48,797 nt of DNA, taken from the NCBI GenBank assembly GCA_016283175.1, contig JAEEMK010000009.1, forward strand, positions 1-48,797, read 5' to 3'. Under the pieces are notes generated by a model that made no database searches, had not been told where the DNA came from, and was given only the letters and a program-made list of their open reading frames with translations. Both the position numbers and the translations under genes were made by a program. Within the stretch, counting starts at the first letter, position 1; every line of letters starts with the position of its first letter. The stretch comes from Bacteroidales bacterium. Its GTDB lineage: Bacteria > Bacteroidota > Bacteroidia > Bacteroidales > P3. Positions 5,814-38,092 of this stretch are shown in pieces.

Positions 5814-7883
5814 TTATTCGACGGTGGTTTCAGCTACGGGAGCGGGTTCTTCGGCAGGAGCCTCGGCAGGGGTGGCTTCCGTGGCGGCCTCAGCGGGCTG
5901 CTCGACTGCCTCAGGCTGCTCTTTCTTGAAAGGCAGGCCCACATACTTCAGCGTATTGGTGAAATAGAGGGCGCAGAAGATGCCACCAAGCACGACCAAC
6001 GTGATGAGCCATTTCTTCCACCAAGCCATCTTCTTGTCGGCATAGGGGTCGGGCATCTTGACCATCGGGTATTTTGCCAAGCTGGTCAATGTAGCACCGA
6101 AAGCAGTGTTGACGCGCACCTGGGCGTTGATGGCCCAGCCGTTGGCGTTGAGCACTGGGCCCAGATTGCGGCGACGCAGCTTTGTCCAAGCAATGAACAT
6201 TGAGGGGCCGGAGACGACAATCACGATGACGGCAAGGAGAAGAATGACGTTGTACCATTTGGCCGTAAGGAAAGCGCCCAATCCGGCAAGAGCCGCCGCC
6301 AAAGCGCCCAAAGCCAAGCCGATGGCAGCAAATATACCGGCAAACTTAGCTATGTCGAACGGCGTCTTCTTCTCGACCGGAGCTTCTGCAGGAGCACCCT
6401 CGGCGGGTTTGGCAGCAAGATTGTTGGTGGCGGTGTCGGCTTTAGCGGTCAGATTGTCCATCTGCTTGGCCTCCTTCTCGGCGGCATTCTTGTTTATCTT
6501 ATCAGTGATGAACTTCCACAGTTTCTTATAGGGAGCCCAGAAAGCCTGGCGCACGCTGATAGGGTTGTCGACAATCTTGGTGACGGTTGCGTCCCAATCC
6601 TGTCCCGAACGGTCATAGAAAACGGCGTTCTTGCCAACGCGCAAATCGTCGATGTCGCCGTCGGTCAAAGCTGCGACGATGTCCATTTCAGCCGCCTTGG
6701 TCTTCGAAACACAATGGCAATAAAGCAAATAGAGACCGCTGAAGGTAGCCGATTCTGCCTGCTTTCCCATATCGGACACCTTGATGCAGAGATCCAGGCA
6801 ACGCTGGTCGATATAAAGTTGGCCACACTGGAAAACAGCCAGTTTCGCTTTGTCGCGAGTATAGAAATCAGCGAAAGTGACATAGTTTTTCAAGAGCTTG
6901 TAGAAATCGCGATAAAGGTGCAGAAACTTGTCAACCAGCTTGATATCGGCATCCTCTTCCGCAGTTTCCTTGTCGAAGTTCTCCACCTTGGCGCTCTTGT
7001 CGTCGGCCAGACTTGCAACATATGCGTCCAACTTGGAGCATACTGCGTTCCATTGTGCCTCGTCGACAGCATCGGTACCTGGATAATCGACATCGAGAGC
7101 CATCGATTTGACCTTGTCGAAAGTAGCTTGCCAAGCAGGGTTGACACCTGTCAGCCTAAGTTTCATATCCTTGTTGGGACGTGCCAGCGGATAGTCGGCA
7201 ATCTTGTCGCTGCACGTAGCCAGATTCATTTCGCTGATAGCCTGAATCTTTTCGACCGACACATCGACTGCATCGGCGCAGTTTTCGTCGAAAGCAATGA
7301 GCTTGCAGCGCATAAAATAGTCTGCAACCTTGTCTTTCAGCGCATTGACAGCAGCGATAGCATCGTCGGTATTGTCACCGTAGGGGCGTTCGTCAAAAAC
7401 AACAGCCGTAGCATCGTCCTTGGATTTAACCTTTTCGTCGAAAGCCGCTTTAGCCTCAACGACATCCGCCAAAGAAACCGAGTCGGCGTCGACACCTTTG
7501 CGAGCGAGAATACGTTTGGCAGAAGCCAAAAGAGCCGCACCGTTGTCATCGGCTTCGTTGATGTCGGCAAGCGCGATGCTGTCGGCACCATCGAGAATGC
7601 GGTCGTGGTTTTTGAGCGATCTGCAAAGCCATTGCGAAGCAGCTACGACCTCGTTGACACGGATTTTACCGTCGGAGTCGGTATCCATCAGTTGCAGCGT
7701 CGTCTCGTCGAATTCAAGGCCTTTGACCGGACAGCTGAGCACAGTCCATAGCTTCTGATCCAGTTCCGCGAGATGGGCGATGTCAGCACCCGAATTGATT
7801 GTCACGCGAGTAACCCCGCCGATAGAAGCAAAAGTCCAGTTGTAGGACCCCGCCTTGCCAGGAATGATACTTTTTTTAGCCAT
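5814..7883 (-). CDS. Uncharacterised EF-hand and multi-pass membrane protein
   Basis: A 689-residue protein I cannot assign to a characterised family. There is no signal peptide. Residues 67-78 (DTDSDGKIRVNE) are a complete canonical EF-hand loop with Asp at 1, 3 and 5, Gly at 6, Ile at 8 and Glu at 12, so calcium binding is likely. A long acidic, Ala/Asp-rich helical region follows. Near the C-terminus are a hydrophobic Gly/Ala-rich hairpin and a second helix (roughly 510-570), a basic RRRNLGP loop, a last helix (about 625-645, WWKKWLITLVVLGG), and a 44-residue tail rich in Pro, Ala and Glu. It looks like a large cytoplasmic sensor domain tethered to the inner membrane. The start at 7883 follows a TAATTTTG -7-like box. 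Confidence 0.85.
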   Translation of the reverse strand: MAKKSIIPGKAGSYNWTFASIGGVTRVTINSGADIAHLAELDQKLWTVLSCPVKGLEFDETTLQLMDTDSDGKIRVNEVVAASQWLCRSLKNHDRILDGADSIALADINEADDNGAALLASAKRILARKGVDADSVSLADVVEAKAAFDEKVKSKDDATAVVFDERPYGDNTDDAIAAVNALKDKVADYFMRCKLIAFDENCADAVDVSVEKIQAISEMNLATCSDKIADYPLARPNKDMKLRLTGVNPAWQATFDKVKSMALDVDYPGTDAVDEAQWNAVCSKLDAYVASLADDKSAKVENFDKETAEEDADIKLVDKFLHLYRDFYKLLKNYVTFADFYTRDKAKLAVFQCGQLYIDQRCLDLCIKVSDMGKQAESATFSGLYLLYCHCVSKTKAAEMDIVAALTDGDIDDLRVGKNAVFYDRSGQDWDATVTKIVDNPISVRQAFWAPYKKLWKFITDKINKNAAEKEAKQMDNLTAKADTATNNLAAKPAEGAPAEAPVEKKTPFDIAKFAGIFAAIGLALGALAAALAGLGAFLTAKWYNVILLLAVIVIVVSGPSMFIAWTKLRRRNLGPVLNANGWAINAQVRVNTAFGATLTSLAKYPMVKMPDPYADKKMAWWKKWLITLVVLGGIFCALYFTNTLKYVGLPFKKEQPEAVEQPAEAATEATPAEAPAEEPAPVAETTVE

Positions 7884-8428
7884 AATATTTTAAATTTTAA
7901 TTATTTGCACAGAATCTTCCAAAATATTCGACTGCAAAATTACTAAAAAAACCAACAATAGCAATAAAAAGATGAAAAAATAATAAACAATGAAACAATA
8001 TACAACATAAAAAAAAACATTGCAAACAAATGAACAAGAACCCTTTCTGCAAACAACGGCCTAAAAACAACATTCATTATCAGTGCATTACAAAATCTTC
8101 CAAGGCATATGTACAGTATTTGTACAGTATATGTACAGTATTTGTACGCTTCTAAAGCGTACAAATACTGTACATATACTGTACAAATACTGTACATATG
8201 CCTATGCTGGTAGGGAGGATAGCGAGGCGTGGCGAGGAGGACACAGAGGTAAAAAAAAGACAAAAAACGGACAGCGATATTGATATTTTTTTTATATTTG
8301 CAAACTGGAATACCAATGCTACAATTCTGAAAAATAGCGTTTATTTTTTTGAAAGCAAGAAATTTACAATAACAGACAAGAAATCGTCAAGACAGAATAC
8401 AACACTAAATCATCAACAATAGTAAAAT
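7884..8428. other. 545-bp intergenic region with divergent promoters and palindrome copy 1
   Basis: AT-rich region between divergent genes. It holds a TAATTTTG box for the minus gene (7942-7935), the long palindrome (8103-8203), and a TATATTTG box for the plus gene (8293-8300). Short open frames across the palindrome (repeating Tyr, Thr, Val, Cys residues) are by-products of the repeat and show no coding signs. Confidence 0.7.
8103..8203. repeat. Long palindrome, copy 1
   Basis: Two 49-nt arms (8103-8151 and 8155-8203) are perfectly complementary around a 3-nt CTA loop. Each arm contains four 11-bp units of the form TATWTGTACAG (the outermost begins CAT, the innermost ends TGTACGC). There are thus eight TGTAC cores at about one helical turn. 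It lies between two divergent genes, so it does not act as a simple terminator for either. Transcribed, it would give a near 50-bp RNA hairpin; as DNA it could form a cruciform or bind a protein at phased sites. Confidence 0.95.
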
Positions 8429-8884
8429 ATGAGACGTATCATTTTCATCATCGCCGTATTGCTCGGCATAAGCCCTGCAGTGGCGCAGAACACCCTCAAC
8501 GACAAAGCAGACAACATAGTAGGAATATACAAAGGGAAGCAAGGCGATGACAATTTCAAAGTTAAAATTGTGAAACTGACCAACGGCACATACCGTGGAC
8601 AGGTTATCTGGATTGAGCACGACCGCGACGCCAAAGGCAACAAACTGCTCGACACCAAGAATCCCGACAAAAGCCTGCGGACAACCCCAGCCGACCGAAT
8701 AGTTCTTTTCTCCGGACTGAAATACAACGAGAAAAAACACTGCTGGAACGACACTAAGATTTACGACCCCCAGCGTGGAATAAGAGCACATCTCCACATT
8801 GAATTCACCGCCGACGGACGACTGCGCGTCAAAGGCTCGTTGATGGGTATCAGCGAAAGTGTATACTGGACAAAAGAGAAATAG
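8429..8884 (+). CDS. DUF2147-family exported protein
   Basis: A 151-residue exported protein with a cleavable signal peptide (MRRIIFIIAVLLGISPAVAQ). The mature part has the DUF2147 pattern: IVGIYKGKQG, then KVKIVKLTNGTYRGQVIWIEHDRDAKGNKLLDTKNPD, and an ending around GSLMGISESVYW. The family is a small beta-barrel-like periplasmic or outer-membrane protein of unknown biochemical role. A -7-like box TATATTTG lies at 8293-8300, about 130 bp upstream. The next gene, ackA, has its own promoter, so this gene is probably monocistronic. Confidence 0.85.
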   Translation: MRRIIFIIAVLLGISPAVAQNTLNDKADNIVGIYKGKQGDDNFKVKIVKLTNGTYRGQVIWIEHDRDAKGNKLLDTKNPDKSLRTTPADRIVLFSGLKYNEKKHCWNDTKIYDPQRGIRAHLHIEFTADGRLRVKGSLMGISESVYWTKEK

Positions 8885-8970
8885 GACCATCATTCAAAAG
8901 CATAGTTCATTTATTCACCTGCACCCGTCAGGAAAAATACTGCAAAAGACAAAGTTTTTTTGTTAAAAAT

Positions 8971-13795: not shown

Positions 13796-13810
13796 AATCA
13801 GGACAGACAA

Positions 13811-13853
13811 TACAACAAGAAAGGGTGCCCGTTGGACACCCTTTCTTGTTGTA
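13811..13853. terminator. Bidirectional terminator between convergent genes
   Basis: A perfect 17-bp stem (13811-13827 and 13837-13853) around a 9-nt loop, with the GGGTG/CACCC core flanked by A-rich and T-rich runs so that it works on both strands. It lies between the T9SS cargo gene and the export lipoprotein gene. Confidence 0.9.
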
Positions 13854-13856
13854 TAA

Positions 13857-14723
13857 TCACATTTGATTCAATGTTCTGATAGTATTTAAATATGTTACGA
13901 TAATCGAACCCACACTGACACCTATTGCTATGTATCGAGGCACATCGTCGTTTCGGTCCGATCTGCGCTTCTTCGTATTACTGGGCTCGACATAGACGAT
14001 GTCGTTGTTGTGAAGATAATAGAACGGTGAATCAAGCATCTCTTTTTTCGTAAGGTCAATCTCGCCTATCTCCTGCTTGCCTCCATCGTTGCGCACTATG
14101 GTAAGGTTCTCACGCTGGCCGTAAACAGTCAGGTCGCCGCAAATGGCAATTGCTTCGAGGATTGTCAGGCGAGTACCTTGTACGTGAATCTGCTGCGGAC
14201 TATTCACCTCGCCGACAACGGTGACACGGAAATTCATCAATTTAGACGTAACAACAGGGTCATTGACATAACCGTCCTCCTTCAACCTGCGTTCTATGAG
14301 ATGGCACAAACTGTCCTGCGTAATTCCTGCCACCATTATATCGCCAAGAATAGGGAAATTGATTGTACCCTTTTCTGAAACAAAATAGCCTGTTATTTCA
14401 GCAGTGACATATTGATTGTTAGAAGAGACGACATAGCCATCCTGCTCTGTAACAGCACGGTATGTAGTATCCAACAGTTGCACCCTGTTGTTTTCAACAT
14501 ATATCTTGTGAGTTTCTTGATTGAAAGGGATTACGCTTTCGGGAGTCTGACTTTCAACATAAATATAAATCTGATCGCCCGGCATTATAGTGGCTGTATA
14601 GGTTTCCAATACAGCCTGTGCCGAATCACGCTGTGCGTCGCTGATATAAGCCAATTCCCGGCTATGGCATCCAGAAGCCAGTACCGCTGTCAGCGCAAGT
14701 ATCAATATTGTCGTATGTTTCAT
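13857..14723 (-). CDS. Polysaccharide export lipoprotein (Wza/SLBB type)
   Basis: A 288-residue outer-membrane-directed lipoprotein with lipobox LASGC (Cys19). A polysaccharide biosynthesis/export domain follows (TATIMPGDQIYIYV, then GTINFPILGDIMVAG), and an SLBB-type domain (FRVTVVGEVNSPQQIHVQG, LTILEAIAICGDL). A single hydrophobic helix near the end (RYIAIGVSVGSIIVTYL) is typical of Bacteroidetes homologues. The family forms the outer-membrane exit channel for capsule or exopolysaccharide. No wzc tyrosine kinase or glycosyltransferases are adjacent, so it is an orphan copy. It lies 59 bp behind tRNA-Ser on the same strand with no clear promoter or terminator between. Confidence 0.88.
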   Translation of the reverse strand: MKHTTILILALTAVLASGCHSRELAYISDAQRDSAQAVLETYTATIMPGDQIYIYVESQTPESVIPFNQETHKIYVENNRVQLLDTTYRAVTEQDGYVVSSNNQYVTAEITGYFVSEKGTINFPILGDIMVAGITQDSLCHLIERRLKEDGYVNDPVVTSKLMNFRVTVVGEVNSPQQIHVQGTRLTILEAIAICGDLTVYGQRENLTIVRNDGGKQEIGEIDLTKKEMLDSPFYYLHNNDIVYVEPSNTKKRRSDRNDDVPRYIAIGVSVGSIIVTYLNTIRTLNQM

Positions 14724-19612: not shown

Positions 19613-20221
19613 TTATTTGTCACGCTGCAACTTGAACCACTCTACAAACTCGGGCAGGTCGTCGAGCGGGCGGAAGCCAGCCTTGAAGGGTTCCTCGGGT
19701 ATGGCACAGGTGTCAAGATAGCCTATCAGCGTGGCGCAGTCGAATTCGCCAATCATAGCCTCGATAGTAACATAGACTCCAACCAGCTGATCATCGTCGT
19801 CTGACACAGGATTTGGCAAAGCGACACGTATGCCCAGTATGTCCGGTTCTTCTTCGCTCTCAAGCTGCATAAAATACATCTGTTTGGTTTCAAAACGGTA
19901 TTTATCGAAAGTCACCTTAAGGTCAGTGCCTTTGGGCTGTTTGAAAGCAACAAACTCCCACCAGTCGAGGTCGGGTGCATTGTCGACAAGTTCAACAACA
20001 TAGCGGAACAAATCGGTGTCGCCTTCAGCCGAAAAGGTAAGCGTGCGTCCCGACGGTGTCGGCTCGCCCATCTCGAAGGTTAAACCCTCGCAATAGGCAT
20101 CAAGCTGCCCTTGAAGATTTTCCAGAAGATTCTGCTGCTCTTTTTCTTCCAAATCGCCGAGCATCGTAAGCTGCTCGTTGTTGTCGGCAAACCATTGCCA
20201 AAATTTCTCGTAGTCGTGCAT
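19613..20221 (-). CDS. Uncharacterised acidic 202-residue protein
   Basis: I cannot name a characterised family. There is no signal peptide or membrane helix. The protein is acidic and Trp-rich at the N-terminus (YEKFWQWFADNNEQL) with a central segment DLDWWEFVAFKQPKG and a C-terminal GYLDTCAIPEEPF...LPEFVEWFKLQRDK. This gives the impression of a cytoplasmic alpha/beta protein conserved as a single domain, resembling widely distributed bacterial hypothetical proteins that contain a WWEF/KQPKG motif. It starts about 70 bp downstream (minus strand) of palindrome copy 2 and precedes purA. Confidence 0.75.
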   Translation of the reverse strand: MHDYEKFWQWFADNNEQLTMLGDLEEKEQQNLLENLQGQLDAYCEGLTFEMGEPTPSGRTLTFSAEGDTDLFRYVVELVDNAPDLDWWEFVAFKQPKGTDLKVTFDKYRFETKQMYFMQLESEEEPDILGIRVALPNPVSDDDDQLVGVYVTIEAMIGEFDCATLIGYLDTCAIPEEPFKAGFRPLDDLPEFVEWFKLQRDK

Positions 20222-20291: not shown

Positions 20292-20388
20292 GCATATGTA
20301 CAGTATTTGTACAGTATATGTACAGTATATGTACGCTTCAGAAGCGTACATATACTGTACATATACTGTACAAATACTGTACATATGC
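20292..20388. repeat. Long palindrome, copy 2
   Basis: Two perfectly complementary 48-nt arms (20292-20339, 20341-20388) around a single A. The build matches copy 1 (four TATWTGTACAG-type units per arm), but the W base of the innermost unit is A in the left arm with the matching change in the right arm, so pairing is kept. It lies between murB (upstream) and the 202-residue gene on the minus strand. Confidence 0.95.
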
Positions 20389-20464
20389 CTTAGAAAGTAC
20401 TTTAAATACCTGGTTCATATATAGTTATATTATCAACCGCCAAATCACCCTAACTTTTTAATAA

Positions 20465-37890: not shown

Positions 37891-37991
37891 AGGCATATGT
37901 ACAGTATTTGTACAGTATATGTACAGTATATGTACGCTTCGTAAGCGTACAAATACTGTACATATACTGTACATATACTGTACATATGCCT
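37891..37991. repeat. Long palindrome, copy 3 (two arm mismatches)
   Basis: 49-nt arms (37891-37939, 37943-37991) around a CGT loop. The units match copies 1 and 2, but the W bases (outer to inner) read A,T,A,A in the left arm and A,A,A,T in the right arm read in the same direction, so two positions (units 2 and 4) do not pair. The immediate flanks resemble those of copy 1 in inverted orientation. Confidence 0.94.
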
Positions 37992-38092
37992 TGGAATGTA
38001 TACTGAAGAAAGAGCTTTTAACCATAGAAGTCATAAACGAAACACAGTGAAAAACAAAACTGCGTAGCGTTTTGGCAATCAAGTAAAACAAA

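Follow-up and report, generated by a model that had tools for sequence, protein, structure and literature searches.

A widely spaced, dispersed palindrome of eight phased GTAC units in several species of one Bacteroidales genus

What kind of element is the palindrome at positions 8103..8203 of the window, the whole stretch of 48,797 nucleotides that was analyzed here? The original prediction described two perfectly complementary 49-nt arms around a CTA loop, with four units of 11 bp in each arm, and offered a nucleoid or partition site, a non-autonomous mobile element, or a processed RNA hairpin as possible roles. We have now followed this palindrome through the window, its genome, and the genus.

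The palindrome in the window and in its genome

An inverted-repeat scan of the window confirmed the description of copy 1. The arms (8103-8151 and 8155-8203) are 49 nt each and 100% complementary, the loop (8152-8154, CTA) is 3 nt, and there are eight GTAC cores, four per arm. The two further copies that had been announced were recovered by the same scan. Copy 2 (20292..20388; arms 20292-20339 and 20341-20388) has 48-nt arms of 100% complementarity around a 1-nt loop, and copy 3 (37891..37991; arms 37891-37939 and 37943-37991) is imperfect, with two mismatches in its 49-nt arms (96% complementarity). Both carry eight GTAC cores, and none of the three copies is assigned to a strand. The two-unit motif TGTACAGTATWTGTAC was found 18 times in the window, six times per copy and always with 0 mismatches when up to 3 were allowed; the mean for 100 shuffled windows was 0.44, and 18 was reached by none of them. 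The cores had been expected to lie about 11 bp apart throughout, which holds inside the arms but not across the center, where the spacing is 15 bp (GTAC-GCTTNNNAAGC-GTAC).

Copies 1, 2, and 3 begin 220, 71, and 111 nt upstream of the starts of minus-strand ORFs, in agreement with the predicted range of 70-220 bp. Whether copy 1 is located between divergent genes, as was also proposed for one of the copies, hinges on whether the 162-aa ORF beside it at 8405-8893 (minus strand), which has no Pfam match, is a gene. The 202-aa protein encoded at 19613-20221 (minus strand) adjoins murB and also has no Pfam match; within the genus, 113 of 119 genomes gave a match to it.

A transcribed RNA hairpin, terminator, or attenuator would fit the position of the three window copies upstream of genes and the very stable fold of copy 1 (-56.3 kcal/mol as DNA, z -19.4). 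We consider it highly unlikely. No terminator-like site, defined as a GC-rich stem with a T-run, was found at positions 7700-8700, the region of copy 1 that was scanned, and 12 of the 82 placeable copies in the genome are located between convergent genes; the expectation that this is not a plain terminator was thus borne out. Rfam at the gathering threshold returned four tRNAs from the whole window and nothing at the copies, and arm complementarity is lost in one of the carrier species (G025, see below). At 13810-13854 there is a 21-nt inverted repeat (95% complementary, loop 3) that appears terminator-like by eye and adjoins the end of the minus-strand ORF 13857-14723.

The genome of the window (G000) is an incomplete assembly of 2.25 Mb on 111 contigs. 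The exact core occurs in it 91 times, which gives about 91 copies genome-wide, and a search with up to 3 mismatches returned 98 matches versus 6 for the reversed control. All four GTAC units are present in 171 of the 182 arms. The element is therefore dispersed, as predicted, and its copies are neither confined to the window nor frequent inside genes, two outcomes that had been named beforehand as refuting: with a crude ORF call, 2 of the 91 copies overlap a long ORF, and the copies are mostly intergenic. By the same call, 82 copies are flanked by genes on either side, and these gene pairs are divergent for 30 copies, tandem for 40, and convergent for 12; the gene context of the other 9 of 91, at the edges of the fetched stretches, could not be placed.

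A 27-mer of three units matched G000 364 times with up to 2 mismatches, or 4 x 91, a count to which imperfect copies add some matches and which variant copies may escape. This equality suggests that, among the matches listed, there are no separate ends elsewhere in the incomplete genome, and no autonomous partner sharing these ends was seen. The two-unit motif TGTACNNTANNTGTAC was not found isolated from palindromes in the 622 kb around the G000 copies. Center-deleted copies are present in the set. One copy near a contig end (G000:C34:97, L075) spans ~180 nt as a palindrome, probably a fold-back artifact of assembly.

Carriers, units, and extent of the element

Among 120 genomes of the genus, 13 matched the general unit pattern with at most 1 mismatch. 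Eight of them (G000, G025, G065, G071, G086, G116, G121, and G133) were counted as carriers, each with at least 32 matches. The named carrier MAGs, all from Bacteroidales, are UBA3724 (G065) and, from sheep and goat gut, RGIG6188, RGIG2655 (G071), and RGIG5467 (G025). Four genomes with 1-2 matches each (G002, G011, G036, and G072) were left uncounted, the G072 sequence being unrelated. G102, with 4 pattern matches, was rejected as a carrier; these probably represent one copy on a foreign contig, because this genome has two marker-gene orthologs (91% and 81%). No palindrome with arms of at least 22 nt was found in 340 kb of three non-carriers, and no such element outside the genus in a class-wide sample of 395 genomes. 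Four GTAC at an 11-bp period occurred in 4 of these 395, namely, G000 and three genomes in which they are simple tandem arrays by eye. An origin from phages or plasmids was rejected, as there was no match in plasmids, phages, or IMG/VR contigs. In G041, from another family of the order, two loci (L164 and L165) contain six-unit TGTAC arrays with units ~11 bp apart that adjoin folC-like and aspartokinase-like ORFs (named by eye); these single-arm, non-palindromic arrays have no dyad and were kept apart from the element.

Searches of the literature returned no described element of this form, and the main text of a review of prokaryotic MITEs contains neither "bacteroid" nor "immunity" (PMC10969869). 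Dispersed intergenic palindromes that form genome-level populations are described for REPs and for REPINs with their RAYTs (PMC3116915, PMC3733652, PMC2817692), and Y1_Tnp genes occur in the genus. Mobilization of a REPIN-like element through its hairpin by a RAYT (Y1/HUH transposase) is nonetheless very improbable. Among 21 genomes, PF01797 was found in 16 and is unrelated to carriage (none in carrier G086 and seven in non-carrier G001); no associated Y1 transposase emerged, and this reading was set aside because the family does not track the carriers. The units and length are also unlike those of REPs, which are described as 20-40 bp and often in regularly spaced clusters (BIMEs), whereas the present copies are single, keep apart, and are unlinked to Y1 transposases (PMC3116915).

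The plan of the element is two ends, each of four 11-bp units of the form GTACNNTANNT, placed head to head over a center of 11 bp, or of 10 bp in some G121 copies. The general motif GTACNNTANNTGTACNNTANNTGTACNNTTNNNAANNGTAC was found at 155 of the 233 fetched loci, in copies from G000, G025, G065 (UBA3724), G071, G121, G133, and RGIG6188; copies with a shortened center or cut ends partly escape it. The unit letters are TGTACAGTAT in G000, with ends that are mostly CATATG; TGTACGGTAT or TGTACGCTAT in G071, with ends of CGTTG; and TGTACAATAY in G121.

The agreement between the two arms was determined at 25 spacer and core positions. There are no mismatches in 40 of the 79 full copies of G000 and in 5 of the 9 of G071. 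The arms of G071 and G121 range from 0 to 6 mismatches, and five full copies each from G121 and G133 have 3-6. In G025, with at least 36 full copies, all 36 copies analyzed have 6-10 mismatches. The arm identity in G000 was above all 1000 shuffles at the outer six bases (0.78; shuffle mean 0.45), the outer spacer (0.78; mean 0.41), and the inner spacer (0.71; mean 0.53, maximum 0.68), and at the middle spacer it was inside the shuffle range (0.76; mean 0.70, maximum 0.80; 1000 shuffles).

The GTAC/TA register and the dyad are kept in all of the carriers that were read, a comparison outside of which the G116 copies stand. Near-perfect hairpins are kept in most carriers and lost in G025. Because the register and dyad persist in every carrier read and the hairpin does not, a protein that binds double-stranded DNA is favored as the common denominator. 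The phased, protein-site-like arrangement of the units that had been predicted is thus upheld, also in G025. The proposed processed RNA hairpin has become less likely, given the arm differences in G025 and the lack of an Rfam family at the copies, and a role for the hairpin in some species may exist beside the predicted DNA-binding protein. Partition sites of the ParR/parC type consist of 11-bp iterons in two groups that are bound by a wrapping protein. The likeness of the present element to them is one of repeat layout alone, 11-bp repeats in two groups; it differs in having about 91 chromosomal copies and in the inverted orientation of its groups.

The flanks of the palindrome were sorted into types. 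By eye, the flanks of copy 1 (8050..8102) and copy 2 (20389..20440) resemble type F4, the first without support from profile searches and both unassigned by profile, and the flank of copy 3 (37992..38080, outer limit approximate) is of type F1 and does not appear among the unassigned flanks listed; none has a strand assigned. In nhmmer searches of 0.62 Mb around the copies, 74 of 75 matches to the F1 family, all 37 to F2, and 19 of 22 to F3 were beside a palindrome. F4 remains a by-eye type, two seeds having returned 1 hit each. No family was assigned to 81 of the 182 G000 flanks, including 5 too short to judge. Type F3 flanks, for example, at L019 and L086, contain a GC-rich unit (CCGGGCTGCCACGCACAAGGCTTCTCCACGCGCTCCAC) that is found beside ~20 G000 copies and is followed by a further end of the CATATGCC type, which gives the appearance of a second, nested repeat.

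Since F1-F3 reach beyond the palindrome, the true ends of the element in G000 are uncertain. Beyond the units there is inverted sequence of the CATATGCC or CCGTTG types in G000 and ACCAAC..GTTGGT in G121, that is, terminal inverted repeats at approximate termini. By reading, the G121 element has the left end ..GTTGGTANGG and the right end ..GTTGGT(C/A)CCTTNAAGG.., and these ends are fixed relative to the asymmetric center in most intact copies; many right arms are shortened. The corresponding intergenic regions of non-carriers are shorter by 97-337 nt (median 217; 9 comparisons at 5 G000 sites). When filled and empty sequences were compared at six G000 sites in search of a target-site duplication, they could not be aligned up to the ends of the element. 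At the site shared by G000 (L079) and G071 (L172), the conserved flanks resume equidistantly, within one base, on both sides, which limits the element there to ~160 nt. These comparisons point to an insert of roughly 160-220 bp.

A short non-coding element with many intergenic copies (about 91, with a median insert of 217 nt) and terminal inverted repeats shares these features with MITEs. The nearest named Bacteroidales element that we found is BrickBuilt, a MITE of Porphyromonas gingivalis that contains a tandem minisatellite of 23 nt and is present 19 times in ATCC 33277 (PMC4596501). Both elements are short, intergenic, and multi-copy, with inner tandem units, leader/tail flanks, and a limited host range, a likeness judged on unit and copy traits, with the spacing rule of the present element outside the comparison. 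In place of the 23-nt tandem unit, the present element has about 91 copies with mirrored 11-bp units, four per arm.

Spacing between copies

The spacing in G000 was determined with 96 copies, 91 exact and 5 imperfect, the latter being those among the matches listed. The 39 gaps within contigs have a median of 14.4 kb, and the smallest is 7.6 kb. No gap is below 7.5 kb, compared with 15.7 expected from random placement with the copy number of each contig held, and the lowest number in 5000 simulations was 6. When the five imperfect copies are set aside, 36 gaps remain, none of them shorter than 7.5 kb versus 14.6 expected. The 8 gaps seen in G025 range from 8.7 to 17.9 kb, with none below 8.3 kb (P = 0.0014), and the stretches of two gaps that were first left unread contain no further copy. 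For G121, a fully read 307-kb contig and a 100-kb stretch gave 16 copies and 14 gaps with a minimum of 8.3 kb (P = 0.0046). The 14 copies of G133, on seven contigs, gave 7 gaps, the two smallest being 4.9 and 9.1 kb; 1 of the 7 is below 7.5 kb versus 3.7 expected (P = 0.04). The copies are thus wider apart than expected by chance in four species, and no gap is below 7.5 kb in G000, G025, or G121. The exclusion is strong and not absolute, because the G133 pair is only 4.9 kb apart. This pair (G133:C37:12884 and 17769, L260) is the sole one seen below 7.5 kb, and the right ends are cut or altered in both copies. We know of no minimum spacing for dispersed bacterial repeats.

The possibility that close pairs are hidden by loss during assembly was rejected, since only 7 of the 114 ends of copy-bearing contigs are within 200 bp of a copy and the rule holds on the single fully read 307-kb contig of G121. 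Hard-core exclusion of 9-10 kb comes nearest to the coefficient of variation of the G000 gaps (0.44 observed, 0.44 and 0.41 in the model); the share of gaps of 10-20 kb is 0.74 observed and 0.62 and 0.72 in the model. A needed period was also considered and is weakened by fully read contigs, on which there are gaps of 56 and 61 kb (G071, C11) and one of 60 kb, in addition to 75 kb that precede the first copy (G121, C3). The pattern is therefore one of exclusion and not of a needed period.

These results are read most economically as a non-autonomous element that has four sites at each of its two ends and excludes further copies of itself from its surroundings. In the form that we prefer, tentatively and with somewhat less than even confidence, the element is MITE-like and each of its ends holds four sites for a predicted protein, probably a transposase with target immunity like that of Mu or Tn7. 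The 11-bp units would be the binding sites of this protein, most likely supplied in trans. A copy with bound protein would ward off new insertions over several kb, as the ends of Mu and Tn7 do through an AAA+ partner, and near-saturation under such an exclusion would lead to even spacing.

The ends of Mu and Tn7 contain several protein sites each, of ~22 bp, and to our knowledge no transposon end is built of 11-bp units. The present element differs in unit length and in its small size, and its exclusion is a pattern of gaps in four species, with one 4.9-kb exception, and not the outcome of a transposition assay. For the cis-immunity of Mu in vivo, insertions are reported to climb sharply at ~5 kb and to reach the bulk level at ~7 kb; in an older study none were detected at 5 kb and no obstruction was left at 25 kb. 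New Mu insertions are thus warded off over 5-25 kb, the scale of the present gaps (PMC7350765, PMC2837660). A family with a self-spacing of at least 8 kb in several species would be the footprint of an insertion exclusion that is otherwise measured by transposition experiments. If copies keep apart in this manner, the range of exclusion would become readable from the genome sequence.

Shared sites and uniformity within species

The site of window copy 2 is occupied in G121 and G133 and empty in G065, G096, G098, and G108; that of copy 3 is empty in G098 and G108. Sites in common with G000 were counted by neighboring marker genes, with one shared flank being enough, and were found for 5 of 9 copies in G071, 5 of 14 in UBA3724 (many of whose contigs end within the palindrome), 1 of 3 in G121, 7 of 36 in G025, 0 of 3 in RGIG6188, and 0 of 1 in G133. 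Six of the seven G025 sites are one-sided. At the seventh (L150), a copy joins the left neighbor of one G000 site and the right neighbor of another, a junction that is due either to rearranged DNA or to wrong assembly across the repeat.

In 407 kb of G121, read in stretches that were picked for holding copies, the palindrome is present at 4 of the 7 G000 sites for which both neighbors are adjacent. Window copy 2 is among these four and had been seen earlier; when it is left out, the count is 3 of 6, for which P is 0.001-0.05 at an assumed chance rate of 4-15% per site. One of the empty cases (L055) corresponds to a degraded copy in G000, and one of the occupied cases (L083) has a 1.3-kb intergenic region in G121. 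At a further 11 G000 sites only one neighbor is in the G121 stretch, and the palindrome was found at 1 of them. None of the 9 comparisons that could be made in three non-carriers, which cover 5 G000 sites, showed an occupied site. Presence and absence at orthologous sites, as known from MITEs, is thus observed.

The copy at L079 and L172 was inherited, because both flanks align far above background and the element has the same position; the alignment scores are 129 (partly coding) and 64, compared with maxima of 24 and 29 for 185 other flanks. Among eight other shared pairs, both flanks of window copy 2 align with G121 (35 and 51), largely in or next to coding sequence, and at L095 one flank aligns with G071 (80) and one with G121 (98); neither flank aligns in the remaining five. 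The many sites common to G000 and G071 or G121 argue that many copies are not recent insertions. The site of window copy 2 may have been filled twice, because G065, the closest relative by one marker protein (93%), lacks the copy and because the F4-like flank is, by eye, on opposite sides of it in G000 and G121.

Identity between copies is 92-96% inside one genome and 78-83% from genome to genome. Four orthologous pairs from G000 and G071 (0.742, 0.804, 0.814, and 0.814) are not more alike than ordinary pairs (means 0.788-0.815); of 79 other G000 copies, 79, 11, 27, and 17, respectively, surpass the orthologous one in similarity. The copies of one species are therefore uniform, and they differ from those of other species even where a site has demonstrably been inherited. 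Such sites, fixed in place but with a sequence that is rewritten in each species, are a clean case of concerted evolution in bacteria and point to a predicted DNA-binding protein. With the preferred non-autonomous element, gene conversion or replacement between copies would produce the uniform set of each species. Copy number and position, the spacing, the presence and absence at shared sites, the shared GTAC/TA register, and the distinct ends in G121 support the mobile element that was among the roles first proposed.

The same observations are relevant to the nucleoid or partition site of the original prediction. An architectural protein would bind the eight phased units and anchor loops or domains of ~10-20 kb, and the copies would be set at intervals along the chromosome and evolve together with their binder. 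This would account for the phased eight-site dyad array, the even spacing in G000, and the positions shared with G121 (4 of 7 syntenic, one known beforehand) and G071 (5 of 9), and concerted sequence change within a species is expected if the preference of the binder shifts. We regard it as unlikely, though it keeps a place among the candidates. Many copies are present in only 8 of the 120 genomes, the 340 kb of non-carriers is devoid of such palindromes, the density is unequal between species, gaps of 56-61 kb occur on fully read contigs, and the G025 and G000 sites overlap little.

It is possible, rather than probable, that the whole can be described as a repeat family of a kind absent from the literature searched, an eight-site phased dyad element that in several species of a single genus keeps at least ~8-10 kb between its copies, whose own sequence is rewritten in concert at fixed positions, and which is either a natural genome-wide record of target immunity in a transposition system or the anchor of a chromosome-organizing protein.

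Breakage at the palindromes could produce both the spacing and the uniformity, and we find this doubtful. SbcCD would cleave the hairpin or cruciform, repair from other copies would homogenize them, and pairs of copies within resection range would recombine and delete the DNA between them, such that the survivors are mostly more than ~8 kb apart. The strong hairpins of the G000 copies, their arm agreement above 1000 shuffles at the outer six bases and the outer and inner spacers, the near-complementary arms of G071 and G121, the uniformity within species, and the center-deleted copies are consistent with such a process. SbcD (TIGR00619) scores above the cut-off in 6 of the 8 carriers, G000 among them, which also speaks against loss of SbcCD as the reason that the palindromes survive. 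However, the spacing is the same in G025 despite imperfect arms in all 36 copies analyzed, the middle spacer in G000 agrees no better than shuffles, and a match to SbcD is absent in carriers G086 and G116, both of which are incomplete genomes. An sbcD-like gene (G000:C72:39807-40550, L101) is located ~600 bp from the palindrome copy at C72:41163.
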